Part shown: positions 570 to 14,727 of the stretch, one piece after another
Position numbering within the stretch: position 1 is the first letter of the stretch
How the letters are laid out: every line of letters begins with the position of its first letter
DNA from: Aurantimonas coralicida
GTDB taxonomy: Bacteria > Pseudomonadota > Alphaproteobacteria > Rhizobiales > Rhizobiaceae
DNA length: 53,965 nucleotides
Assembly: GCA_011050685.1 (NCBI GenBank)
Contig: DRFF01000167.1
Location: 1-53,965, forward strand
Reading direction: 5' to 3'
The notes under the pieces: generated by a model
What the model was told of the DNA's origin: nothing
Databases searched by the model: none
What the model saw: only the letters and a program-made list of their open reading frames with translations
Made by a program: the position numbers and the translations under genes

Positions 570-3500
570 TCAGGCCGCGATCGGCTTCGGCGTAGGTGTA
601 ACCGCGACCACCCTGCCGCTCGTCATCAGCACGATCAGGCCCAGCTCCGCGCCCGTCATGTCGAGATAGGCTCGGACCTGCATCCGGTAGTGTTCCACCG
701 TCTGCTGATCCGAGGCGACGTCGCTCTTCCAGTCGACGATCACCGCGGGGCGTCCATCGGCCCCGGCCGTCAGCGCGTCGGCGATGCCGGCGGTCGCGAC
801 CAGCCCGGCGTCCTCCTCCCGAACGGCGTAGACCGGGAACTCGGCGAGCAGCGCCGGACGCAGCTCGGCGACCTGCGGAAGCGCCAGTGTCCGCACGACG
901 CAGTCCGCCAGCTCCTGCGGCGACAGCCCGTCGGCCGGATCTTCGACCGGGACCTTGCCGAGCGAGCGGATGAGATGGCCGGCGCGCTCCGCCAACCCTG
1001 CAAGCGCGTCGCCGGTCTCTCCGGTCAGCACCTCCTCCATCAGCTTGTGCAGGACGAGCCCGCGGTCGCGGCCGCCTTGGACCGGCGCCGCCTCGGGTCC
1101 GGTCGGTAGGCCCTCCTCGGACCCGGCCCAGACGGCGGCCTGCTCCTCGAGCAGCACCGGCCCAGCAGCACTCTCATCGCGGCTCGGGGCAAGCCAGACG
1201 AGGCTCGTCCGGCGGCCGATGATACCCGCGGCCTCCTCGGCGTATACCTCGCGCGTCTGCCCGTTGGCGGTGGCGGTTGGCAGCCCGATCGGATCGAGCG
1301 GCAGCTCCGATGGGTCGAACGCGGGCAGCTCGGTCAGCATCAGGTCGACCAGCCCGATCCAGGCCCCCTTGTGCGGCGTCACGTCGAGCCGAGGCAGGAT
1401 CAGAAGCTCGCGGGCGCGCGTCGCCGCCACATACCAGAGTCGTACGCGCTCGCGCTCGAGTTCGGCGACCTCGGCGTCGCGCGCCTCGTCGTAGCCGGTC
1501 GGCGCGACGCCGAGGACCGGGCAGTAGAAGGTATCGGTCTCCCGGTCGACGATCGCGCTGTCGGCGGCCATCACCCCGGTCATCGTGTTGACCGGGATGA
1601 TGGCCGGCCACTCGAGACCCTTGGCCGCGTGCATGGTGAAGAGCGCGACCGCCTCCTCCTGGGCGTCGGGCCGGCCCTCGACCGCCCGCGCCTCGTCTTC
1701 CCATGCGGCCGTCATCGCCTCGGAGAAGGCGCGCAGGCCGCGGACCGCGTAGCCCACCGCGAGGCTGAGGTAAAGGTCGACGTTGGCGAGCGCCCGCTCG
1801 GCCTGCCGGCGATGGCGGTCGAGCAGGATTGGCCTGACACGCATCACATCCACCGCCTGGGAGAGCAGGTCGTGGGGCGTCGTCGAGTTCACGCGCCGCT
1901 GGAGCGACTGCAGACGCCCGATAACGTTGCGCGCCAGCGGATGGCCGATCGCATCCAGGTCGACACCGAGGTCGAGGCGCGGGATCCGGTCGGCCTCGTC
2001 ATCAGAGCGGGGGAGCGACCAGACGATGTCGAGCAGTTCCTCCTCGGTCAGGCCGACCAGCGGGCCGCGCAGCAGCGCGCCGAAGGCGAGCGTGTCGCGG
2101 CGGTCGGCAAGCAAGCGGGTCAGAGCGATCAGGTCCTGTACCTCCTGGCGGCGGAACAGCCCCTTGCCGGCCTGGGTCGCGACCGGAACGCCGCGACGCT
2201 CGAGCGCCTCCTCGTACCGCCACAGTTCGGTGCCGGTGGGCGCGAGGAGGGCGATGTCGCCAGGCTGGCACGGACGCGTCATCCCCACCCCGCGGTCAAT
2301 AACCTGGTGGCTGCCGATAAGCCGGGCGCACAGCTCCGCCACCGCGTCCGCCTCGGCATCGCGCTGCCGCTCGACCTTGGCGTTGCCGTCCTCGTCCGCC
2401 GCCGCGACGTCGAGCGCGGCGACGCAGACGCCGCCGGCCGGATCGCCGTGGAAGGGATCGAGCCCGGTGAAGCCTGGCTGACCGTCGGCCGACAGGATCG
2501 CCTCGAAGCGCTCGTTGACGAAGGTAAGGATCGAGCCGCACGAGCGGAAGTTGGTCGAGATCGAGACGAGGCCGTCGGTGTCCTGCGCCGAAAAGGCGGT
2601 CCGCGCCTGGACGTAGGCGCCGACGTCGGCGCCGCGGAAGCGGTAGATTGCCTGCTTGGGATCACCCACCAGGAAAAGGGCGCCGGCCCGGATGCGGAAA
2701 GTGGTCCAGTCGCCCCCGCCTTCACCTGGATCGCCACACAGGCGCCAGAAGATCTCGGACTGGAGCGGGTCGGTGTCCTGGAACTCGTCGACCAGCACGC
2801 GCTGGTAGCGCCGCCCCAGGGCCTGACGGACATCTTCGTGGTCGCGTAGCATGTCGCGGGCCGCATGGATGAGGTCGTCGAAGTCGAGCTGCGCGCTCGC
2901 GCGCTTGTAGTCGCGGAAGCGATCCATGATAGGGCGGGCCTCCGCCATCAGGGCCGCCAGGGCGTGACCCGCGGCGGACTGGAGCAACGCGTTCCAGACG
3001 TTGCGACAGGCCTCGTAGAGATCCTTCGCCGTGTCGTTGAGCTGGTCGCCGTCCGTCTTCGAGAGACCGGCCGCCTTGGCGGCGGTGCCCCACTTGCCCT
3101 TCTTCGCGTAGGCCGAGAACGCACCCGCCTTGGTGCAGATGCCGGGATGCGGGCGCGAGGTCAGCAGCGCCACCAACCCGGCGGGCGTCGCCGCAACGCC
3201 AGCCGACGGGAGGGCGGCAGCCATCGCGGTCAGGCACTGCGCGATCTCCACCGTCTCGGGCTCGGTGGCCCCCGCGCCCGCGATGAACGACGAGAGGTCC
3301 CCGACCGCCTGGCAGAACGCCTGGAGCGCGGCCGGCAACGGTGTCACCGCCGGCGCCACCAGCGTCCGGCCACGGCGCAGGCTCCCCGCGATCCTGTGCA
3401 TCAGCTGGACCGTCTCGCCATCCTCGCGCAGCACCATCTCGGCGAGGACGCCGCCCTGCCCCGCCGACAGGCGCTCGCGCAGGAAGGCATCAACGATCTC

Positions 3501-3962
3501 GAGGAAGGCGAGATCGGCCTGGGCACCGTCCATCACCGTGGCACCCGGGTCGATGTCGGCCTCGACCGGATAGGGCTTGATCAGCCGCTGGCAGAATCCG
3601 TGGATCGTTGAGCACGTAATCTCGTCGATCGCAGCGCTGGCGGCCGCCAGGTTGGCGCGCTGCTCCTCCGAGAGCCCGTCCGGCAGGCCGACGCGAAGCT
3701 CCGGCGCGACATGGTCTGCGGCAAGGTCCTCGACGAACTGGCGCACCCGCGACAGCAGCTCGCTCGCCGCGAGCTCAGTGAAGGTCACCGCCGCGATGGC
3801 ACGCGGAGCGACGCCCTGCGCGAGCATGACGGCGACGCGGCCGGCCATGACCGCGGTCTTGCCCGAGCCGGCGCCGGCCTCGACCAGGATCGAGCGGTCA
3901 TGCCCGCTGATCGCGTCGCGACGCGCGGCGTCGTCCTTGAGAATCCTGACGGTGGTCATCAT
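570..3962 (-). CDS. AddA/UvrD-like helicase-nuclease
   Basis: 1130-aa superfamily 1A DNA helicase with a C-terminal nuclease domain, organised like AddA of the AddAB recombination nuclease. Walker A AGAGSGKT is at residues 29-36, then TIHGFCQRL, Walker B LVDEFQDT near 390, the motif III-like stretch VGDPKQAIYRFRGAD, the Q/NFRS-type motif STNFRS, motif V TMHAAKGLEW and motif VI LWYVAATRAREL. The nuclease motif VIVDWKSD is near residue 1075, with QVRAYL downstream, as in RecB-type PD-(D/E)XK domains. It should translocate on and degrade DNA ends together with the upstream AddB-like partner. Its ATG overlaps that partner's stop (ATGA), so the two are translationally coupled. It is the last gene of the operon that begins with the ubiquitin-like protein. 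Its length is close to ordinary AddA, so housekeeping AddA is possible, but the operon context argues for an accessory paralogue. Confidence 0.9.
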   Translation of the reverse strand: MMTTVRILKDDAARRDAISGHDRSILVEAGAGSGKTAVMAGRVAVMLAQGVAPRAIAAVTFTELAASELLSRVRQFVEDLAADHVAPELRVGLPDGLSEEQRANLAAASAAIDEITCSTIHGFCQRLIKPYPVEADIDPGATVMDGAQADLAFLEIVDAFLRERLSAGQGGVLAEMVLREDGETVQLMHRIAGSLRRGRTLVAPAVTPLPAALQAFCQAVGDLSSFIAGAGATEPETVEIAQCLTAMAAALPSAGVAATPAGLVALLTSRPHPGICTKAGAFSAYAKKGKWGTAAKAAGLSKTDGDQLNDTAKDLYEACRNVWNALLQSAAGHALAALMAEARPIMDRFRDYKRASAQLDFDDLIHAARDMLRDHEDVRQALGRRYQRVLVDEFQDTDPLQSEIFWRLCGDPGEGGGDWTTFRIRAGALFLVGDPKQAIYRFRGADVGAYVQARTAFSAQDTDGLVSISTNFRSCGSILTFVNERFEAILSADGQPGFTGLDPFHGDPAGGVCVAALDVAAADEDGNAKVERQRDAEADAVAELCARLIGSHQVIDRGVGMTRPCQPGDIALLAPTGTELWRYEEALERRGVPVATQAGKGLFRRQEVQDLIALTRLLADRRDTLAFGALLRGPLVGLTEEELLDIVWSLPRSDDEADRIPRLDLGVDLDAIGHPLARNVIGRLQSLQRRVNSTTPHDLLSQAVDVMRVRPILLDRHRRQAERALANVDLYLSLAVGYAVRGLRAFSEAMTAAWEDEARAVEGRPDAQEEAVALFTMHAAKGLEWPAIIPVNTMTGVMAADSAIVDRETDTFYCPVLGVAPTGYDEARDAEVAELERERVRLWYVAATRARELLILPRLDVTPHKGAWIGLVDLMLTELPAFDPSELPLDPIGLPTATANGQTREVYAEEAAGIIGRRTSLVWLAPSRDESAAGPVLLEEQAAVWAGSEEGLPTGPEAAPVQGGRDRGLVLHKLMEEVLTGETGDALAGLAERAGHLIRSLGKVPVEDPADGLSPQELADCVVRTLALPQVAELRPALLAEFPVYAVREEDAGLVATAGIADALTAGADGRPAVIVDWKSDVASDQQTVEHYRMQVRAYLDMTGAELGLIVLMTSGRVVAVTPTPKPIAA

Positions 3963-6607
3963 TCGGCCTCCCAGACCAGGGTGGCATCGCCCATCCGCTC
4001 GGCGGCGGCGGGCTTCTTTCGCTTGCAGTAGGTCGCGCCGGCGTTGGCAGGCAGGGCGAAGGCGAGGTCGTCATAGCCCCCGCCGGTGTCTGGCCCGGGC
4101 AGCGCCGCGCCGCCGGCGAGCGAGGTCCGCGCGGAACGCAGGTAGCCGGTCACCTCGGTCAGCGCGCCGCCAGGATCGTCGAGCTGCAGATCCAATGGCT
4201 CGCGCGGATACAGCAGCGAGGCGCTAATCTCCACGTCCTCGCCGAGGAGCTGCCGGACCGCGAAGGCGTAAAGGCAACGCTGCAGCTCCCGACCGCCGTC
4301 GAGGCGGATCGCGCCCCTCGGCGCCTTACCGGTCTTGTAGTCGCGCACCAGCGCGCGCTGGCCGTCGGCGGCGACGTCGAGCCGGTCGATGTAGCCCGCG
4401 ATGCAAAAGCCCGTGTCGGGGATCGTCACCGGCACCGACGCGTCCCAGGGGAGCGCGGCATCCGACTTGGGCTCGTAGCCGCCGAAGGGCACCTCACCGT
4501 AGGACACGGTGCCCGGAACGTGGGTGTCGTATTCCAGCGCGCGGGCCGAGAGAGCACGCGCCTCGCTAAGCGTGCGGCCCCAGATGACGTCGGGCGGGAC
4601 CGGTCGGCCGGCCTCCCACTCCGCCGCGACCGCAGCGGACGCGTCGGCCACGGCGGCCTCGATCGCGGCGGTGTCGGCCTGCACCAGACCGCCCGACGCC
4701 TCCAGCAGGCGCAGCGCACGGTCGAGGACCATGTGGACGAGGTCGCCGGTCTGAAGCGGATCGAGGACGAGCGGCTCGGCGCTGGACTGCGGCGCCTTCC
4801 AACCGAACGCGTAGCGCCAGACGAAGCCGAGCGGGTTGCGGAGCAGGGCCTTGAGCGAGCTCGCGGACTGAGTCCGCTCGAGGATCGCGCTGATGAGCGG
4901 ATGGTCGGTGCGGACCATGCCATCGTGCGGCGTGACCTCCTCCAGCCGCCAGTCGCGCCAGCAGGCCTTGGCACCCGCCGCCTGGAGCTCGGCGTCGAAT
5001 TCCTGCGGCCGGGCCATGAGGCGGTCGGTCTCGCTGAACGCATGCCCGGGGACCGCGTTGCGGCGAAGATAGGCCTCGTCGCCGTGGTCGGCGAGCAGCG
5101 GGCTTCGGCCGAGCAGGCGGCCGTCCCTGTCGCGCCGGGCGCGCGACAGGACGACCTCGCCCGAGGTGGTCGCCAGGATCGTCCTGAAGTCGCGGCGGTC
5201 GGCCAAGGTGACGGACAGCGGATCAAGCTCGGCGGTGGGAATGACGTGATCCGGGATCAGGCGGTCCTCGGAGATGCCGCGCGGCCAACGCGACGAGTTC
5301 AGGCCGAGGAGGCGAACGTGGAGGCGCGGCGAAGCCGCCAGAGCGCTGGCGGGCATCCAGGCAACGGAGACGCAGGCATCGAGACCATCGTCCTGCTTCA
5401 GCGATCCGAGCGTCACGTCGATCGACGCGGCCGGTCCGGCGAGTAGCGCCTTGCGCCAGATCGTCAGCGCGCGACCCTTCAGGAAGGCCTCGCCGACCGC
5501 GGGGGCGGCGTCCGACCCCTGCGCCAGGATGGAGACCGCGTCGCGCAGAGCGGGCGTGTGGTCGAGACCGTCCGGCCAGTCCCCGGGCGTCAGGCGAGCG
5601 AAAAGGCGGTTCCATGCCCCGGACGTCGAGAGCGGAGCGTTGCTCGGGAGCACGCGCAGCCAGCCGTCGGGCAGCGACGAGAGCGGCGCCGAGTCTTGGC
5701 ACAGCGCCGCGAGGCGGCGCAGGCGCGTCTGAGTGATCCCGCGCACGACGATGTCGGCGAGCGCCGCGGCCGCCTGCCCGTTTCGCGTCGTCACGGTGTG
5801 GACGCCGTGCACGAAGTGGAGATCGATGTTGGCGTCGGCGCGCAGTGCCAGGAAGTGGTCGTCGTAGTCGGCGGGAGACGCCGTCGCAATGGCGATGTCG
5901 GACGCATCGACGCCGGACGCCAGCAGCGACCGCGCCCAGCGCATCGCCTCGATGGCCTCGTGATAGGAGGTCGCAGCGCTGACGGCGGGCACCACCGGAT
6001 CCTCGGCGGGCGCGCTGGCGACAATCACGGCCGCGTCAAGCCAGTCGGGCACCAAGCGCGGACCGGCGGTCCAGGTCACCGGGATGTGCTGGGCGAGCAG
6101 GCCAACAAGCGGGCGCCAGCACGGGGAGATCTCGGTCAGCCCGTCGAACTCGACCGCACCGATCACCGCCGGCGCATGCGCGATCCGGGCCGTGGCCGCC
6201 GCGACGATGTCGACGGGGCGCATCATCCCCTCGGGAAGCTCCGCAAGAACCGCCGCCTCGAGGCGCGCGATGGCGTCGAGCCGCGGATGGTCCAAAGCGC
6301 GGGCGGCGAGATCGATGCCGGCACGCCAGGCCTTGTGCAGCGTGTCGCCAGCCGCACCGACCATGCCGGGTAGCCCCTTAATGCTCTCCAGCTCGCCCAT
6401 CGGCGTCACCGGCAGGACCGCCTGGATCGCCTCCCGCAGGCTCTCGTCGTCGATCGGTCGAGCGAAGCCCCCAGCCAGGCGGGCCGCTGCCTGCTCGAAG
6501 GACATGATCTGGACGCCGTGGCGACTGTCGCGCGCCGCACAGAAGCGGGCCTCGCGCATGGCGAGCCGGCCATGAACGACAAGAGTGTATCGACTCGCAT
6601 TGACCAT
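3959..6607 (-). CDS. AddB-like PD-(D/E)XK nuclease
   Basis: About 882 aa. The start is set at the ATG at 6607, preceded by a GAGAGG ribosome binding site; the open frame continues 52 codons further upstream but that part does not look coding. A C-terminal RecB-type nuclease domain is clear: a GYIDRLDV strand, then VRDYKTGK near residue 756 and a following RELQRCLYAFAV helix. The N-terminal two thirds resembles the helicase-like scaffold of AddB proteins, but I see no Walker A P-loop. The four-cysteine Fe-S cluster of classical AddB is also not evident, since only isolated Cys occur near the C-terminus. It presumably forms a heterodimer with the AddA-like protein. It lies 64 bp downstream of the DUF6527 gene, with no terminator in between. 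Confidence 0.85.
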   Translation of the reverse strand: MVNASRYTLVVHGRLAMREARFCAARDSRHGVQIMSFEQAAARLAGGFARPIDDESLREAIQAVLPVTPMGELESIKGLPGMVGAAGDTLHKAWRAGIDLAARALDHPRLDAIARLEAAVLAELPEGMMRPVDIVAAATARIAHAPAVIGAVEFDGLTEISPCWRPLVGLLAQHIPVTWTAGPRLVPDWLDAAVIVASAPAEDPVVPAVSAATSYHEAIEAMRWARSLLASGVDASDIAIATASPADYDDHFLALRADANIDLHFVHGVHTVTTRNGQAAAALADIVVRGITQTRLRRLAALCQDSAPLSSLPDGWLRVLPSNAPLSTSGAWNRLFARLTPGDWPDGLDHTPALRDAVSILAQGSDAAPAVGEAFLKGRALTIWRKALLAGPAASIDVTLGSLKQDDGLDACVSVAWMPASALAASPRLHVRLLGLNSSRWPRGISEDRLIPDHVIPTAELDPLSVTLADRRDFRTILATTSGEVVLSRARRDRDGRLLGRSPLLADHGDEAYLRRNAVPGHAFSETDRLMARPQEFDAELQAAGAKACWRDWRLEEVTPHDGMVRTDHPLISAILERTQSASSLKALLRNPLGFVWRYAFGWKAPQSSAEPLVLDPLQTGDLVHMVLDRALRLLEASGGLVQADTAAIEAAVADASAAVAAEWEAGRPVPPDVIWGRTLSEARALSARALEYDTHVPGTVSYGEVPFGGYEPKSDAALPWDASVPVTIPDTGFCIAGYIDRLDVAADGQRALVRDYKTGKAPRGAIRLDGGRELQRCLYAFAVRQLLGEDVEISASLLYPREPLDLQLDDPGGALTEVTGYLRSARTSLAGGAALPGPDTGGGYDDLAFALPANAGATYCKRKKPAAAERMGDATLVWEAE

Positions 6608-6671
6608 CTTGGGCCTCTCGGTTTTCACGCGCCGCTTGAAATCGTTCGAAATAGGCGGCGCGTCTTGCTCT

Positions 6672-7073
6672 TTATCCGGTGAGGCTGTTCCACAGTTGCT
6701 TGATCCAGTCGATGAAGGCCTTGCCTCGCGTGGGCTTTGGCCCGCGCTTAAGGAGGCGATCATAATCCCGGCCCGCCTCGATCTGCCTTTGGGTCATCTT
6801 GCCGGCCCACTGTATGCGACCCCGCTTGATTATGTAGTGGGAACCGCAGGGAAAATCATGATTGCCAATCGACGGCCAGATTGATGGCTCGTCGTTCTCC
6901 ATAATCAGTTCGTATTCTGTTGCAACAAGCGGGGTCGTCACCTCCTCGCCGCATCCGCAGGCACAATTGTGGAGCGCGACCTGGCATTCGTGCGAGACAT
7001 ACAGAATCCCGTCCTCGAGTTGCTCGGGAATTTCTTTCAAGAAGACTGGGCGGAGGCGGGCGATGCGAGCCAT
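6672..7073 (-). CDS. DUF6527 family protein of ubiquitin-like operon
   Basis: 133 aa. The sequence matches DUF6527 as I know it: GILYVSHECQVALHNCACGC near the N-terminus, then WPSIGNHDFPCGSHYIIKRG. Cys30, His35, Cys37, Cys39, Cys41, Cys76 and His79 could bind one or two metal ions, probably zinc. This family is found with bacterial multiubiquitin proteins and ThiF/E1 enzymes; its role in conjugation or deconjugation is not something I can read from the sequence. The start codon overlaps the stop of the E1-like gene by one base (TAATG), so the two are coupled. The C-terminus is basic and may contact nucleic acid or partner proteins. Confidence 0.85.
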   Translation of the reverse strand: MARIARLRPVFLKEIPEQLEDGILYVSHECQVALHNCACGCGEEVTTPLVATEYELIMENDEPSIWPSIGNHDFPCGSHYIIKRGRIQWAGKMTQRQIEAGRDYDRLLKRGPKPTRGKAFIDWIKQLWNSLTG

Positions 7074-8260
7074 TACATCTTCCGATTCGTAATCATGTTG
7101 CCCTCAATCATATACGTCGAGTTCCTCTCGTTTCGCTCGTCGCGATAGAAGCCTGACCAACGCTTCCATCGCGCGATCGCCATGATGGCGTTCAGGGAAT
7201 TGAGCTCTGCGATCTGGATCTCTGTCGCGTAGACATTGTCCTCCTTGTCGTCGTCCCCGAACGAAAGGTAGTTCGCGACCTCCTCCCACTGCGTCCCCGG
7301 CGCGATAAAGGTCGCACGAGCACATCCGTCGAGCGTGTCATCCTCCAGTCCGAGTCCGATGCCCGTGTCGATGAACGGGACGCCTAGGCGGTGCAGGCCC
7401 TCGGCGATCGCCCGTCGCGACGAGCCCTTGTCGACGCACACGAAGACGAAATCGTAATCTGTGAACTGATCGATGTTCTCGGTGTTCACCCTGACCGGAT
7501 ACGACTTCACACCCTTGTGCATGCGTCGATACAGCTCGCCATAATAATCCACCTTGCGCGGAAAATCCTTAGCGAGCGCCAGATCCGGCGGACCCGGCGA
7601 GCGGAAAAGATTGTGGTTCAGCAGTTGGTCGTCGTCGAACAGGTTGATCTCGGCCATGCGAGTTTTGGCGACGAGATCGAGCAGATATGCGCCGGTGCCA
7701 CCGAGGCCGATGATGGCGATGCGTCCCTTCAGCTTGCGATTGGCCGCGACGATGCCGTAGCGGGCTGACGCCGAGTCAGGGATCGCGAAGGGGCTGTCGT
7801 CGTCGACGCTCTCCACCTTGGCGCCCGTGCGGGCATTGGCGGTCTTGTCGTGCGACCGCGCGGCCCCGCCGAGGTGAGACTCGTAGGTGACCACCTTGTC
7901 GTAGATGTTGGCATACTTGCCGGCGCCCTCCGGCTTCGACGAGAAATAATGCCCGACCTTGATGTCCATGCCGACGGTCGCCGGTTGGCTGTTGTTGATG
8001 ATGTTAGTCATCGGCGTGCCGTCGCGGTGGCACGGGATCTCGCCGGTGAAATACATGGTGTGGTCGGCCTGCGGGGTGGACGTCAGGCCGCCAGGACCGA
8101 GCGAAAGCGCGCAGACGAGCGTGCCGCGGTCGAGCGACTTGTCACTCTTCACGTAAGGTACGCTGTGGACGAGGAGGATGAGCTCGCGGATCTCGAGCTC
8201 AAACCCCTCGTCCTGCAGCCGCTTCAGGTTCGGATCACGACTTATCAGATCGGCGGACAT
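7073..8260 (-). CDS. ThiF/E1-like adenylyltransferase of bacterial ubiquitin-like operon
   Basis: 395 aa from the ATG at 8260, which has a GGGATGG ribosome binding site; a longer reading from 8320 would overlap the upstream gene more deeply. The C-terminal half is a ThiF/E1 Rossmann domain: IAIIGLGGTGAY at residues 181-192 binds ATP, then NLFDDD near 207-211 and the NHNLFR segment (215-220) expected of E1 enzymes. FVCVDKG follows. It should adenylate the C-terminus of the ubiquitin-like protein encoded upstream. The N-terminal ~175 residues match the domain usually fused to these enzymes (DUF6791-like); it contains GEIPCHRDG with Cys77. No separate E2-like gene is present in the operon, so this domain or a free cysteine may carry the transfer step (inference). 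Cys50, Cys77 and the Cys in LDGCARAT are candidates. Confidence 0.87.
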   Translation of the reverse strand: MSADLISRDPNLKRLQDEGFELEIRELILLVHSVPYVKSDKSLDRGTLVCALSLGPGGLTSTPQADHTMYFTGEIPCHRDGTPMTNIINNSQPATVGMDIKVGHYFSSKPEGAGKYANIYDKVVTYESHLGGAARSHDKTANARTGAKVESVDDDSPFAIPDSASARYGIVAANRKLKGRIAIIGLGGTGAYLLDLVAKTRMAEINLFDDDQLLNHNLFRSPGPPDLALAKDFPRKVDYYGELYRRMHKGVKSYPVRVNTENIDQFTDYDFVFVCVDKGSSRRAIAEGLHRLGVPFIDTGIGLGLEDDTLDGCARATFIAPGTQWEEVANYLSFGDDDKEDNVYATEIQIAELNSLNAIMAIARWKRWSGFYRDERNERNSTYMIEGNMITNRKM

Positions 8261-8894
8261 TGAAGACCATCCCGTTCTTGACTGCGATCTTCTCACCCTC
8301 AACGAGGTCGCCTTCGGCATCGTGGACGCCCTTCAAGTAGGTGATGGTATACTTGAAGTTCTCGAAGTCAGCGTCGGGGTAGGCGATCGACGCGATCTCC
8401 CGATACGTATGCTTCCTCCTCGGCACGGTCCGCGTGCGGCCATTGACCTTGATGGCAACGGTCTTCGCTTCGCGGCTGCGAATGCGCTCGACGCCGTTGT
8501 CGCTGAGCGTCACCTCGCCGTCCCAGGGGATCACCGTGTCACCGGCGCTATCGAGTATCAGCTCGAGGTCACCATCGATGTTGGCGTAGCGGTGGATGTC
8601 AGCTGCTGAGACGGTCGGCGCGCCCCACTCCCAGCCCCGCTCGTTGACGGTGAAGGTGTATATCCGGTCGCCACGTGACGAGAGGAAAACGGCTTCCGCG
8701 CCGTTCTCTAAGGTGACCTCGTCCTCAAGACCGATCGAGCGGCCGGTGCCGTCGGCAATCTGGATGAGGACGAAGTCGCTTGCCGGCATCAGCCCCGCGA
8801 CCTCGCGGACCTGGCTGCCTTCGACTACCCCGTCGTCCGACCCGTAGGCGGTACCATCGACGGTGAACTTAAACTTCCTGTGCCCGTGGGCCAT
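8235..8894 (-). CDS. Multiubiquitin-type protein with three beta-grasp domains
   Basis: 219 aa, built as three successive ubiquitin-like beta-grasp units at about residues 6-71, 77-137 and 145-213. Each opens with a strand such as RKFKFTVDG, IYTFTVNER or VAIKVNGRT, and units 1 and 3 close with an acidic loop and a hydrophobic strand. Acidic loops (NIDGDLELILD and YPDADFENF) could bind divalent cations, as reported for three-domain bacterial ubiquitin-like proteins. The chain ends FNVRRSDKS rather than in Gly-Gly, the kind of C-terminus seen in this multiubiquitin family. It is the first gene of the five-gene operon, with an AGGAG ribosome binding site before ATG 8894, and it overlaps the E1-like gene by 26 bp. 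Confidence 0.87.
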   Translation of the reverse strand: MAHGHRKFKFTVDGTAYGSDDGVVEGSQVREVAGLMPASDFVLIQIADGTGRSIGLEDEVTLENGAEAVFLSSRGDRIYTFTVNERGWEWGAPTVSAADIHRYANIDGDLELILDSAGDTVIPWDGEVTLSDNGVERIRSREAKTVAIKVNGRTRTVPRRKHTYREIASIAYPDADFENFKYTITYLKGVHDAEGDLVEGEKIAVKNGMVFNVRRSDKS

Positions 8895-8956
8895 GATATC
8901 GCTCCTGTTGCGTAGACTCTTGATCCCGCGTCTGTGGTGGACTAGGATTATGAATG

Positions 8957-9018
8957 AGTCCCGATGTGGACAAGTCTACACTTGGACTATAACGAAATTC
9001 AAGTCCAATATTAGACTT
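8957..9018. promoter_or_regulatory. Paired palindromic operator between ubiquitin-like operon and toxin-antitoxin pair
   Basis: Within the 140-bp divergent intergenic region, 8972-8988 reads AAGTCTACACTTGGACT and 9001-9018 reads AAGTCCAATATTAGACTT. Both follow the palindrome AGTCYA-N-TRGACT; the second is symmetric except for one base pair. Their centres lie about 29.5 bp apart, close to three helical turns. A further overlapping half-site pair GTCC-N6-GGAC sits at 8958-8971. The second palindrome ends just before the antitoxin ribosome binding site, so binding would block the antitoxin promoter. Binding by the Xre-type antitoxin is inferred. Confidence 0.6.
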
Positions 9019-9034
9019 TATGGGAGAATTATGC

Positions 9035-9424
9035 GTGGCTAACATCGAACCCATCGTCCGGACGGGCGCAGGGCGACTCCCGATTCCAGCGGTCATGGAG
9101 GCTTTCCAAGGACTTGCGGAATTATGGCATCTGTCCACCGAGGACCAATTGCTGCTGCTCGGGTCGCCCGGCCGATCAACATTTTTCAAATGGAAGAAGG
9201 AGGGGGGAGCGATACCAAGGGATACCGTCGAGCGCGTCTCGCACCTCCTAGCCATCCACAAGGCGCTCGAGATCCTGCTGCCAGACGCCGGAGCCGCAGA
9301 CGGCTGGGTCCGCCGCCCGAACGACTATTTCAGCAGCCAGAGCGCACTCGACGTGATGCGCGGCGGCCAGATGATGGATATCTTCCGAGTGCGACAGTAT
9401 GTGGATGCCCAGCGTGGTGGCTGA
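9035..9424 (+). CDS. Xre/MbcA/ParS-family antitoxin
   Basis: 129 aa from GTG 9035, chosen because GGGAGA lies 8-9 bases upstream; the in-frame ATG at 9020 has no ribosome binding site and falls next to the operator. The protein has an N-terminal helix-turn-helix-like segment (ELWHLSTEDQLLLLG with a TFFKWKK recognition helix) and a C-terminal region like the MbcA/ParS/Xre toxin-binding domain, ending with WVRRPNDYFSSQSALDVMRGG. This is the usual antitoxin partner of RES toxins: it neutralises the toxin and autoregulates the operon. The toxin gene starts inside its last codons. The tandem palindromes upstream are the likely operator. Confidence 0.85.
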   Translation: MANIEPIVRTGAGRLPIPAVMEAFQGLAELWHLSTEDQLLLLGSPGRSTFFKWKKEGGAIPRDTVERVSHLLAIHKALEILLPDAGAADGWVRRPNDYFSSQSALDVMRGGQMMDIFRVRQYVDAQRGG

Positions 9425-11090: not shown

Positions 11091-12011
11091 ATGTCTTCCA
11101 GAATTTCCGATCCACACGAATGTTCGTCCGAGCGAGGGGATGGCGACGATCAGCTCGCAGCCTCGCTTGCGGCCCTGGCGGGCTCCGTCGTCCGCGACGC
11201 GGCCACCACCGCGCGCCTCGATGACCCGGTCCTCGGGGCTTTTTCCGCAGTCGCCGGTCTGTCGCATTCACTCGTCGTCCGCCACGGCACCGCGGCCGCG
11301 ACCGCGCTTGCGCGCATTCTGGCGGCTTCCGGGGTCTTTCAGGTCCTGGCCGAAGAAACGATCCCGCTGACGGCGACCGCCGCGGCGCTGATGGAAACCA
11401 ATGCCGGGGCCCGCCTGCGGGCGGTCGACGTGCCCCATGACCAGCGTGTCACGGGCTCTTATCGCGTCGATGCCGTCGTTATCGACGAGCAGAGCCATCA
11501 CGCCTGGCTCGTCGAGGTGCGCCGCCAGGCCGGCTCCACGACAAAGCGCGCCCGGCAGCGCCTCGAGCACGCGCGGCTGTCGGCGGTCGGTCATCTGCGG
11601 CCTCACCGTGTCGCCGAATGCAGCACGATCGTGATCGATCTGCACGGCGCCGAGGAGGGTGAAGGCGTCGTCCCGCGGCATAAGCTGGACGCGTTTTTCG
11701 GCGTGCCGGTACAGCGTCACCTCGATGCCTTCGACAGCACATACAAGGATGAGGCGCAGACCGCGCTCCTGGCGCGACTCACGGATCTTGCCGCCATCAT
11801 GCTTCCGGCGCAGGAGCCGACCCCGGCGGATGCACCCTTGCCCGACGACGGCGCGATCAATGGGGAGCAGCCGGACAATGCTTCTCCCTCCCAGCCTGGG
11901 GGACCCCCGCCACGTCGACGCCCACTGAGTCCGGCGGAAGCCCTGTCGGCCCGTCGGGGTCTTGCCGGTATCGCATCGCCGGGCGCCGCACGAGTTGGGA
12001 GGGCGGGCTGA
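11091..12011 (+). CDS. Unknown protein with possible degenerate PD-(D/E)XK fold
   Basis: 306 aa; not a family I can name. The N-terminal 100 residues are Ala-rich helices. The core YRVDAVVID (Asp127) followed 15 residues later by AWLVEVRRQ (Glu142, Arg144) resembles the D...ExK arrangement of restriction-endonuclease-like folds, with Arg in place of Lys. A strand VAECSTIVIDLHG follows. The C-terminal 70 residues are Pro-rich and disordered. It is the first gene of a tightly packed operon (its stop overlaps the next ATG by one base) whose third gene is an AAA+ protease. It might be a substrate-recognition or nuclease-like subunit; this is inference from the motif and the context. Confidence 0.6.
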   Translation: MSSRISDPHECSSERGDGDDQLAASLAALAGSVVRDAATTARLDDPVLGAFSAVAGLSHSLVVRHGTAAATALARILAASGVFQVLAEETIPLTATAAALMETNAGARLRAVDVPHDQRVTGSYRVDAVVIDEQSHHAWLVEVRRQAGSTTKRARQRLEHARLSAVGHLRPHRVAECSTIVIDLHGAEEGEGVVPRHKLDAFFGVPVQRHLDAFDSTYKDEAQTALLARLTDLAAIMLPAQEPTPADAPLPDDGAINGEQPDNASPSQPGGPPPRRRPLSPAEALSARRGLAGIASPGAARVGRAG

Positions 12012-12646
12012 TGAGGCCGACCAAAACGCCTTCCGATGACCACCTGGCTCCAGGGCAGTCGACCATTCCCGGTCAGATCTCGCACAAGTCGCCGACCGTC
12101 CTCCCAGTGCCCGCTTGGCTGATCGTGGGCGCGGCGATCCGCGCCACCTGCAGGGACAGCCATGCTGATACGGGAGGTCCGGGGGATCATGCCGGTATCC
12201 TGGCTGCTCTCGACCGCCTCGCTGATGAAGGTCATCCCGCTGCTCGACTGGTGGCAGCCTGGATCGGCCGGCGAGGCGTCGGTGTCGCAGGTTCGGCGGC
12301 AACCGATCCGGCGGTGCCGTCGCGCGTCGCAGCAGAGAGTTCTTCCAAGGGACGGGCCGACGATATGCGCTCCGTGCCGACGCGAGATGACGGACCGCTA
12401 CCGGCCGTCGATCGATCTCCGGTGGAAGGCGATGGCATACGCGGCTGCCTTGTTACGGAATTCGCCATGACGCCGGCTCGCGCAATCGAGGCAATGGGGG
12501 CTGATCCTCTTCCCGAAGGCACCCCGAGGTCGCGTGTCCCGCATTTGCGTGAACCCATGTCGGACATGGCATTCGGGAAACCAGTCGATCCGGCGCGGGG
12601 CGAATCGTCTCCCGACCGTCGCATGGACAAGGAGGACGGGCGATGA
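12011..12646 (+). CDS. Hypothetical protein between nuclease-like and AAA+ protease genes
   Basis: 211 aa, unrecognised. Residues ~25-90 (LPVPAWLIVGAAIRATCRDS, then HAGILAALDRLADEGHPAAR) form the only ordered-looking segment; the rest is rich in Pro, Asp, Arg and Ser and looks disordered. The start overlaps the previous stop (TGATG) and its stop overlaps the start of the AAA+ gene (ATGA), so the three are one translational unit. It could be an adaptor, but nothing in the sequence proves it. Confidence 0.55.
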   Translation: MRPTKTPSDDHLAPGQSTIPGQISHKSPTVLPVPAWLIVGAAIRATCRDSHADTGGPGDHAGILAALDRLADEGHPAARLVAAWIGRRGVGVAGSAATDPAVPSRVAAESSSKGRADDMRSVPTRDDGPLPAVDRSPVEGDGIRGCLVTEFAMTPARAIEAMGADPLPEGTPRSRVPHLREPMSDMAFGKPVDPARGESSPDRRMDKEDGR

Positions 12647-14727
12647 TCCAGCGCCTCAGCAAATCGAAGACCTCCGAGCCACTGCCTGACGATCTCGACA
12701 TGGAGCTCGAAGAAATGGCGACGCTACTGCTCGGCGACACGCCGGAGACAGGCGCGCGTCCCGACGACCCTCCGGCGGTTTCCACGCCGCAATCGGCAAC
12801 CGGCGGCCGCGGTCGTCCGGTTGTGGCGGCCCAGAGGGCTCTCGCAGGCCTGTCGCCGAGCAGCGATGCGCTGGCAGCCCGTCTGGTGCGGCCGCTGTGG
12901 GGGCTGCGCGAGAAGGTCTCGGATGGCGGGCATCTGCTGATCGTCCTGCGCACCCGCTCGGTCGACTGGAACGCGGCGGCCGAAGCCGCTGCGAAAGCGC
13001 TTCTTTATGCGGCGGCGATCTTGAGGGAGGTACACTTCAGGATAACCAGCGAGTCCATCGATCCTGGCGCACGCAGAAAGACGGGCTTCGAATCGATCGC
13101 TGAGGCTCTACAGGCGGATCACCTCATTGTCGCGGTGCCGGTGGGTGGCGATCTGCCAGCGCCGGCGGGCTCGCTGCTCGATCTTGAGATCGATCTGACC
13201 GCGCCACTGACGACGGCCGAGATCGCCCGGACGATCCGGCGGACACTGCGCACCAGCTCCGTCCAGCGGCCCGCGCCGTCCGGATGCCCATGCCCGCCCC
13301 CGGAGGTCGACTTGTCGGCCCTCAACCCGCTCGAGATCGATGTGGTGATCAGAAAGGCCGCCACGCCGGCGGCGGCATTCACGGCGCTGGAAAAGATCGC
13401 CGCGCTTCGCGGTGATGCAGCCGGTGCCACCCGGCCACCGCCGAGCCTCGAGGACCTTCAGGGCTACGGCGATGCCAAAGACTGGGGTCTTGCTCTGGCG
13501 CGCGATCTGGGGGCCTATCGCGCGGGATCACTCGCCTGGGCGGATGTCGACGCCGGCGCCTTGCTCGTGGGGCCGCCTGGCACCGGCAAGACGCTCTTCG
13601 CCAGCGCGCTGGCGAAGAGCGCCGGGGTAACATTCTTTCCGACGTCCTATGCGCAATGGCAGGCCAGCAAGGATGGCCACTTGGGGAGCGTGGTCCAGGC
13701 AATCCGGAAGGTTTTTTCCGAAGCCAACGCCGCGGCGCCCGCCCTGATCTTCATCGACGAACTCGATACGCTGCCGGCGCGCGGCGGCGGCGAGCGTCAT
13801 GCCGATTGGTGGGCGGCGATCACCACCTGTCTCCTGGAGTGCATGGACGGCACTAGCCGCCGCGAGGGCGTCGTAGTGATCGCCGCGTGCAACCACGATC
13901 GCAACCTCGATCCTGCGATTGTTCGATCTGGTCGGCTCGACCGTCGATTCTGGATCGGGCTTCCCGACGAAAAGCAGCTCGCCGCAATCCTTGCTCATCA
14001 CCTGCCGGGGATTGATGCCGCGGCGATCGAGCCGGTGGCCGTGTCGCTGGCCGGCTTCACCTCGGGGGCCGACGCGGCGCGGATAGCCCGTGACGCCCGC
14101 CGCCTCGCGCGGCAGGCAGGCCGCGCGGTCATCAGCGATGATCTTTTTGCCGTTGCACTGCCCCCGGATGATCGGCCCCCGGAGATCCAGCGTCGGATCG
14201 CGGTGCATGAGGCGGGACATGCCATGATGCAGATGCTGCGGGGGCGGATCCCCCGCTCGGTGTCGATTATCGGAATCGGCACTTTGGGTGGCGCGACAAT
14301 TACCGATGGGGTGCTGGAGGAATCCCGGGCCGTCGATCTCGATGCGCGGATCGCCGTGCTCCTGGGTGGCCGGGCCGCCGAGGAGATCATCCTCGGCAGC
14401 GTCTCGGGCGGAGCGCTATCCGATCTGGCCGAAGCATCGCGGCTTGCCGATCAGATGGCGGGGCGCCTTGGCCTCGGCGACCATCTTTCGGTAGGGGGCG
14501 ATCCGGCCGGTGATCCAGTCGATCGAGCGGGCATCGAGGGCCGGCTACGCCGGATCTACGCCGCCGTTCTGCTTCGCATGGTCGAGCGAAAGGCCGAGAT
14601 AGTTGATCTTGCCGATCTGCTTCTCGACAAGCGTGTCCTGGGACGGCAAACCCTGACGGAATTTGCCCGGGAGCGCGGCCTGATCCAGGAGGATACTCCG
14701 GGGACTCCAGGACGAATGTCAGGGTAA
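12643..14727 (+). CDS. Soluble FtsH-like AAA+ ATPase with M41 metalloprotease domain
   Basis: 694 aa. The AAA+ module has Walker A GPPGTGKT at ~310-317, Walker B LIFIDELD at ~368-375, a sensor stretch VVVIAACNHDRNLDPAIVRS and RLDRRFWIG for the Arg finger region. It is followed by a peptidase M41 domain with the zinc motif HEAGH at ~522-526 and the downstream SGGALSDLAEASRLAD segment containing the third ligand Asp (~591). FtsH is normally anchored by N-terminal membrane helices; this protein instead has a ~280-residue soluble N-terminal region. It should be an ATP-driven protease of the cytosol. Coupling with two unknown genes upstream suggests dedicated substrates or adaptors. Confidence 0.87.
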   Translation: MIQRLSKSKTSEPLPDDLDMELEEMATLLLGDTPETGARPDDPPAVSTPQSATGGRGRPVVAAQRALAGLSPSSDALAARLVRPLWGLREKVSDGGHLLIVLRTRSVDWNAAAEAAAKALLYAAAILREVHFRITSESIDPGARRKTGFESIAEALQADHLIVAVPVGGDLPAPAGSLLDLEIDLTAPLTTAEIARTIRRTLRTSSVQRPAPSGCPCPPPEVDLSALNPLEIDVVIRKAATPAAAFTALEKIAALRGDAAGATRPPPSLEDLQGYGDAKDWGLALARDLGAYRAGSLAWADVDAGALLVGPPGTGKTLFASALAKSAGVTFFPTSYAQWQASKDGHLGSVVQAIRKVFSEANAAAPALIFIDELDTLPARGGGERHADWWAAITTCLLECMDGTSRREGVVVIAACNHDRNLDPAIVRSGRLDRRFWIGLPDEKQLAAILAHHLPGIDAAAIEPVAVSLAGFTSGADAARIARDARRLARQAGRAVISDDLFAVALPPDDRPPEIQRRIAVHEAGHAMMQMLRGRIPRSVSIIGIGTLGGATITDGVLEESRAVDLDARIAVLLGGRAAEEIILGSVSGGALSDLAEASRLADQMAGRLGLGDHLSVGGDPAGDPVDRAGIEGRLRRIYAAVLLRMVERKAEIVDLADLLLDKRVLGRQTLTEFARERGLIQEDTPGTPGRMSG

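Follow-up and report, generated by a model that had tools for sequence, protein, structure and literature searches.

The whole contig of Aurantimonas coralicida analysed here (53,965 bp, hereafter the window) carries a minus-strand array of five genes, encoding a triple ubiquitin-like protein (Ubl), an E1-like enzyme, a DUF6527 protein and a helicase-nuclease pair resembling AddB and AddA (AddBA). A first-pass annotation had described this array as a conjugation operon and offered, as the simplest model, that conjugation controls the nuclease encoded behind it. The array is real, but it is of interest for another reason: the steadier partner of the Ubl-E1-DUF6527 trio is not AddBA but a divergent gene pair (9020/9035-10121), encoding an Xre/MbcA/ParS antitoxin and a RES toxin, which lies just outside the annotated interval and was missed there. 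The gene content of the locus, the pairing of this RES clade with operons of the E1 and cyclic oligonucleotide-based antiphage signalling system (CBASS) types, the conserved sites and their spacing between the divergent genes, and the exchange of partners by AddBA are all direct observations. Xre-RES is proposed, with about even credence and from comparative sequence data, to be a toxin-antitoxin (TA)-type controller of Ubl/E1 immune operons of diverse kinds, and perhaps a co-effector in them; AddBA would be an optional addition.

Operons facing the Xre-RES pair

Relatives of the window RES gene were found in 42 plasmid records, 13 of them conjugative, and the best ten of the 42 were inspected (identity at least 45.0%; records 11-42 were all at or below 37.7%). 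Nine of these ten face a ThiF/E1 operon. The operon facing Xre-RES was Ubl-E1-DUF6527 in L012, L013 and L261, Ubl-E2-E1-phosphotransferase-DUF6527 in L263 and Ubl-Metal_CEHH-JAB-E1 in L262, E1 was found in this position in L264 and L265, and E1 with JAB in L266 and L267; in L299 the pair likewise faces Ubl-CEHH-JAB-E1. In the tenth plasmid record, L260 (1874-6753), an Xre-RES pair of the same clade faces genes for a SMODS CD-NTase, a SLATT protein and a Tle1-like phospholipase, which is a CBASS-like set, and no E1 operon. Two genome samples (385 and 372 genomes) gave RES matches in 37 and 70 genomes, respectively, and identity reached at least 45% in four only, the source genome itself, G278, G621 and G840. 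The last of these, fetched once the pattern was known, carries Ubl-CEHH-JAB-E1 back-to-back with Xre-RES.

The ten plasmid loci, L068 and the four genomes make up 15 close RES loci (at least 44% identical), and in all 15 the pair and an immune operon are arranged back-to-back, the operon including an E1 gene in 14 and being the CD-NTase set in one; such a recurrent position beside the promoter is that expected of an immune-operon controller of the CapW, CapH+CapP or CapK+CapS kind. G621 repeats the Rhizobium etli locus L013, and L264/L265 and L266/L267 are near-copies, which leaves 12 non-redundant loci, 11 of them with E1. Pairwise identity among the 12 ranges from 39 to 94% for RES and from 52 to 97% for Xre. 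The same neighbour was met from the side of the trio: a divergent Xre-RES pair adjoins it in the window's own E1 clade (window, L012, L013, L122 and L163) and in L068. As a weak control, three genomes of the class (G072, G313 and G387) contain weaker RES matches together with Multi_ubiq genes, but these are on other contigs or megabases apart.

The window pair conforms to the Xre-RES (MbcA/ParS-type) TA family in that an antitoxin gene with the C-terminal toxin-binding domain Xre_MbcA_ParS_C overlaps the adjacent RES toxin gene (by 26 bp). The Xre start is uncertain and is either 9020 or 9035, the latter according to the gene caller. Close relatives of the RES protein carry the RefSeq name 'RES family NAD+ phosphorylase', while a sequence search of the PDB gave no match to the window RES. 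RES proteins are described as NAD+-acting ADP-ribosyltransferase domains in extracts of one study (PMC9503650), and extracts of another describe a Pseudomonas putida Xre-RES system that represses its own promoter through a palindromic repeat (PMC12204516). The pairs studied here differ from the family at large in having a divergent immune operon and a pair of sites, conserved across the clade, at a spacing of 44-46 bp.

The shared intergenic region and the proposed switch

The window, L012 and L013 served to define the site pattern AGTC-N8-GACT, with which the other loci were then scanned. Thirteen intergenic regions each contain one to three matches with no more than one mismatch, a level reached by base-shuffled versions in at most 3.1% of trials, and exact matches occur nowhere else in the searched sequence of the window (53,965 bp), L012 and L013. 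Two copies of the site lie 44-46 bp apart in 13 of the 14 loci scanned, the exception being L260; in L122 the second site, and in L299 the first, overlaps the called Xre start. Alignment of 11 of the intergenic regions gave 26 invariant columns, which include ACTTG, GTC and GACT, despite pairwise identities as low as 52% for Xre and 39% for RES. Two boxes ∼17 nt apart, one TTG-type and the other (in most loci) TATAGA-like, were recognized by eye inside the array when it was read toward the Ubl/E1 operon. As these boxes fall within it, the array would constitute a repressible promoter.

Several observations weigh against this proposal. A scan with the sigma-70 consensus reported no facing promoter in the intergenic region, and one-mismatch sites counted over whole loci are no commoner than chance, so the case for the sites rests on their position and spacing. 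Xre-RES is also rare in the wider set of trios described below, being present in 3 of 14 drawn by Multi_ubiq and 0 of 16 drawn by E1, and most trios do without it. Finally, the sites may serve the autoregulation of Xre-RES alone. This last possibility belongs to an explanation that we consider unlikely, in which Xre-RES is an addiction module that stabilizes a plasmid-borne immune cassette and the operators matter only to its own expression. The conjugative character of many plasmids with RES loci agrees with it, and extracts of Kopfmann et al. (2016) propose the same for the DUF955 pairs, another TA family, beside multiubiquitin genes (PMC4963859). However, the promoter of the facing operon must lie in the same region, all of which is spanned by the conserved sites, and the back-to-back arrangement was found in all 15 loci examined.

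The controller proposal, in which repression, toxicity, conjugation, phage defence and the role of DUF6527 are inferred, would operate as follows. Two divergent modules would share one regulated promoter region, to which the nuclease pair is attached as an option. Xre, or the Xre-RES complex, would bind the AGTC-N8-GACT array and so repress two transcription units, its own and the Ubl-E1-DUF6527 operon opposite. Infection or stress would lower the amount of free Xre, whereupon the Ubl/E1 pathway would be switched on and RES, a predicted NAD+-consuming enzyme, would be freed, and immune conjugation and growth arrest would thereby be coupled. E1 would adenylate the Ubl C-terminus, DUF6527, with its CxCxC...CxxH motif, would be a candidate for the transfer or processing step, and AddBA may degrade broken phage DNA or back up the host AddAB. 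A bolder form of the proposal, possible but on the improbable side, makes the RES-Xre clade a portable toxin-armed switch of Ubl-conjugation and CBASS operons, in which a single Xre would hold both facing promoters, loss of Xre would release conjugation together with an NAD+-destroying toxin, and AddBA would be an optional DNA-degrading arm. Here Xre might be removed by infection, or by attachment of Ubl to Xre or to RES itself.

AddBA and its partners

AddBA resembles the AddAB/RecBCD family in that its two genes overlap and together encode a UvrD helicase and PD-(D/E)XK domains. The first-pass annotation had asked whether a separate housekeeping addAB exists, and one is present in the same genome on contig C83. 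The AddA encoded there scores 1311 bits on TIGR02784, and the window AddA scores 263 bits (271 as a whole protein), far under the equivalog cut-off of 860.75; in addition, the window pair sits beside defence systems. AddBA as the housekeeping pair was set aside. The window pair is not the only one in its genome, nor is the gene order unique to the window, as it recurs in other rhizobia (L007, L042, L047, L049, L058, L059, L077, L084 and L087, and in L174 with a transposase gene between).

A tblastn search with the window AddB gave matches in 64 of 72,556 plasmid records, and 233 relatives were obtained from a genome scan; only the best 80 of these entered the set, so that close alphaproteobacterial kin dominate it. 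With 15 plasmid loci and the window this amounted to 96 loci, in 94 of which AddA follows AddB. The upstream DNA was too short in nine, and the 87 readable loci showed a divergent WYL regulator (53), a co-directional Ubl/E1 operon (13), Shango (4), CBASS (1) or other genes (16); the neighbour labels rest on reference proteins from few loci, so that unlike systems fall into the last class. Behind the WYL gene lay Hma in 26 loci, bacteriophage exclusion (BREX) in 13, type III restriction in five and nothing recognized in nine. System names were taken from PADLOC models applied to one or two representatives per set, which returned BrxA, BrxB, BrxC, PglX, HmaA, HmaB, HmaC, a type III enzyme, SngABC and, in L010, the CBASS cyclase, E1-E2 and JAB; no PADLOC model matches the window AddB. 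Twenty-one loci have genes labelled ZacABC, and 26 have one large helicase, within 3 kb downstream of AddA. A search of viral contigs with the AddB alignment gave no relative. These data argue that AddBA is a promiscuous mobile cassette of defence islands, acquired separately and optional to the Ubl operon. In the Desulfosarcina plasmid L010 (5513-15152), genes for a type II CBASS cyclase, E1-E2 and JAB are followed directly by AddBA, where an effector would be expected; a role for AddBA as CBASS effector was set aside, this being a single locus.

The first-pass annotation had proposed testing whether the trio and AddBA occur together beyond chance. The pairing has been repeated, but AddBA is not regularly present with the trio. 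Multi_ubiq was detected in 12 of 385 genomes of the class and 15 of 398 of the phylum, together 26 different genomes. Fourteen of these contain the trio, with AddBA directly downstream in two (window and L163) and within 10 kb in two more (L122 and L124). A search with E1 of 397 genomes of the order gave matches in 182, mostly general ThiF proteins, and in 19 at E ≤1e-50, and the 16 newly fetched loci among these 19 contain neither AddBA nor this RES in the stretch fetched. Pooling the Ubl- and E1-drawn trios, AddBA is directly downstream in 2 of 30 and within 10 kb in 4 of 30, the sample including a few short contigs (L249 measures 4.9 kb, and no judgement was possible for L164, with 3.4 kb). 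The E1 search in the family of G273, with seven genomes only, gave one match.

Seven of the 12 non-redundant Xre-RES loci have AddBA or parts of it in the flanking DNA fetched, in varying positions: after DUF6527 (window and L013), after RES in the same direction (L262), tail-to-tail with RES (L261 and L068), beyond ZacABC genes (L122/L213) and upstream (L012, in which AddB is a short open reading frame, ORF). The flanks of L260 and L263-L267 extend to only 5-6 kb, and AddBA nearby may be missed there. Being near the Xre-RES-Ubl unit without a fixed order, AddBA appears to be a useful companion, not a fixed part.

The history of the pairing was followed on an AddB tree of 98 rows built with FastTree only, for which the Shango cases L104 and L176 and the JAB/ThiF case L112 were added and relabelled by hand, L124 and the R. 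etli AddB were added, and L179, with a broken AddBA, was omitted. The 15 Ubl rows require eight changes, all eight forced by branches with support of at least 95, against a mean of 14.2 for shuffled labels; the Ubl label is thus clustered, yet its gain or loss has happened more than once. The partner of the window AddB on the tree is the WYL-type locus L085, which is among the long branches flagged on the tree, and not with the Ubl group of R. phaseoli. AddB of R. phaseoli is 77% identical to that of the window and its E1 39.5%; R. etli L013 has the same gene order as the window and an E1 66% identical, but a different AddBA, its AddB being 23% identical. With identities running in opposite directions in the two species, the histories of E1 and AddB disagree. 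The AddBA cassette of L079 stands behind a Ubl operon, yet its AddB leader resembles those of WYL-type loci over ∼190 bp, and this cassette seems to have moved with its own promoter. Leader similarity to WYL-type loci was also seen at L042, L058, L059 and L077, if less clearly than at L079, whereas the window AddB leader shows none.

These results bear on the model of the first-pass annotation, in which the activity of the nuclease is controlled, for example upon infection, through Ubl conjugation with AddBA as either target or agent. The pairing is recurrent, independent and co-directional, involves two different AddBA lineages and other E1 systems (the L010 CBASS, L079, L106 and L112), and extends to the seven Xre-RES-Ubl loci with AddBA or parts of it nearby. 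However, most AddBA loci adjoin systems without any Ubl, only the two trios of 30 are followed by AddBA, and its place relative to Ubl varies among close relatives, so that we hold the model to be improbable. A dedicated link between conjugation and nuclease is doubtful given that AddBA also stands beside BREX, Hma, type III restriction-modification, Shango and CBASS genes, and AddBA as a dedicated Ubl target or effector was set aside for this diversity of partners and kept as a rival explanation. Where Ubl/E1 genes lie within 3 kb of AddBA (14 loci), they are upstream and co-directional in 13 and downstream and co-directional in one. This single strand orientation in 14 of 14 cases, together with the fixed back-to-back placement of Xre-RES and the fixed site spacing, argues against mere coincidence, in which independent systems would be packed on plasmids and islands with no functional coupling. 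All the modules are mobile and AddBA clearly swaps partners, as coincidence would have it, but we consider this the least probable explanation, and very improbable. Some advantage of Ubl-AddBA co-transcription is plausible, the link being optional and non-exclusive.

The gene array, its conjugation parts and known systems

All five ORFs of the array were recovered on the minus strand at the coordinates first annotated (Table 1), with a codon-usage gene caller written for this analysis in agreement. The junctions, a 26-bp overlap, a 1-bp overlap, a 64-bp gap and a 4-bp overlap, were likewise reproduced. The annotation had called the conjugation genes and AddBA 'fused in context', which is true of gene adjacency, but no protein fusion exists. 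The contig ends 569 bp beyond AddA, and no convincing gene start was found within those 569 bp. On the other side, beyond RES, three closely ordered plus-strand ORFs (11091-14727; 306, 211 and 694 aa), the first without a Pfam match, are possibly another island module.

Table 1. Features of the Ubl-E1-DUF6527-AddBA array and the divergent Xre-RES pair, in window coordinates
Feature	Position	Strand	Evidence
AddA-like UvrD helicase with PD-(D/E)XK domain	570..3962	-	UvrD E 6.3e-52, PDDEXK_1 E 2.9e-6
AddB-like PD-(D/E)XK nuclease	3959..6607	-	PDDEXK_1 E 3.1e-18
DUF6527	6672..7073	-	E 4.5e-22
E1-like enzyme	7073..8260	-	DUF6791 E 9.4e-43, ThiF E 4.3e-12
Ubl, triple multi-ubiquitin-like protein	8235..8894	-	three Multi_ubiq stretches, E 1.2e-32
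Shared intergenic region, facing promoters (putative, assigned by eye from alignment)	8895..9034	.	26 invariant columns, 11 loci
Candidate operator array, AGTC-N8-GACT sites	8957..9017	.	8957 (1 mismatch), 8973 and 9002 (exact)
Xre/MbcA/ParS antitoxin	9020..9424	+	Pfam Xre_MbcA_ParS_C E 6.7e-10, Xre-like-HTH E 7.6e-8
RES toxin (predicted; NAD+-consuming family), 240 aa	9399..10121	+	Pfam RES E 6.2e-11

The solved structure nearest to the window Ubl is 9cd2 (E 2.5e-25). The C-terminus of the window Ubl, FNVRRSDKS, contains no Gly-Gly; in most Ubl proteins of this type the tail is FNV-x-x-(S/T)-x-x-S or similar, also without Gly-Gly. Both the profile and the structural model of E1 (predicted local distance difference test score, pLDDT, 85.9) match Citrobacter BubCD best; the adenylation residues are invariant and no cysteine is conserved at 90%. 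Bub pathways reportedly depart from thioester chemistry. DUF6527 follows the window-type E1 in 27 of 27 loci of the Ubl-side set and 16 of 16 of the E1 sample, and has the invariant residues C37, C39, C41, C76 and H79. Its AlphaFold2 model has a mean pLDDT of 89.8, but gave no PDB fold match at E ≤0.001 (best E 0.1), and assignment to a known fold was set aside. As the operon has no E2 or peptidase gene and E1 no conserved cysteine, DUF6527 is a candidate transfer or processing factor, and that it completes this step is a guess. L263 (336-4431) and L079 (6044-9232) carry Bub-like operons that encode E2, E1 and a phosphotransferase-like protein. In L263 the last gene of the operon is DUF6527, which thus also occurs where an E2 is present.

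Just upstream of many multi-Ubl genes, at L007 (3020-6421) and its relatives, lies a gene for a single protein with an M78 (IrrE-like) peptidase, a UvrD helicase and a PD-(D/E)XK domain, which precedes Ubl in 3 of 14 and 5 of 16 of the trio loci. It is a second helicase-nuclease tied to Ubl operons, and perhaps a steadier one than AddBA. In the window's E1 clade and in L068, Xre-RES is the neighbour instead. DUF955 and M78 form one group. The placement of the M78-UvrD gene fits the multiubiquitin-COG2856/DUF955 link described in extracts of PMC4963859, where TA-like genes beside PF14452 genes are reported (70%), as at the window. The toxin-like partner given there is COG2856/DUF955, whereas the window has RES in this role, together with a shared array of conserved sites.

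The window shares with the Bub (bacterial ubiquitination-like) pathways a multi-Ubl gene and a Bub-like E1. Bub operons encode E2 and peptidase, according to extracts of PMC12687455, whereas in the window only DUF6527 and AddBA follow E1. Of 544 Bub operons, 219 have CapW or CapH with CapP and 59 have CapK with CapS, and the extracts giving these figures name no RES (PMC13373217), whereas Xre-RES is the controller proposed for the window. The Ubl/E1 immune logic is shared with Bil (BilABCD), and L262 and L299, of the same RES clade, face Bil-like operons; a BilB-type E2 (CEHH) and a JAB peptidase are absent from the Pfam matches of the window's five genes. Among the matches listed from the open-licence literature, none reports, by title or abstract, control of Ubl operons by RES-Xre or an AddBA cassette of this kind.

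As a helicase-nuclease that moves in the company of BREX, Hma, Shango, CBASS and Ubl systems, AddBA appears to be missing from current catalogues. The association of Ubl operons with Xre-RES would extend the published tendency of multiubiquitin genes to adjoin TA-like loci. A compact, conserved control element tied to a TA pair would provide several bacterial ubiquitin-like immune pathways at once with a trigger that can be tested directly, and perhaps with an effector.

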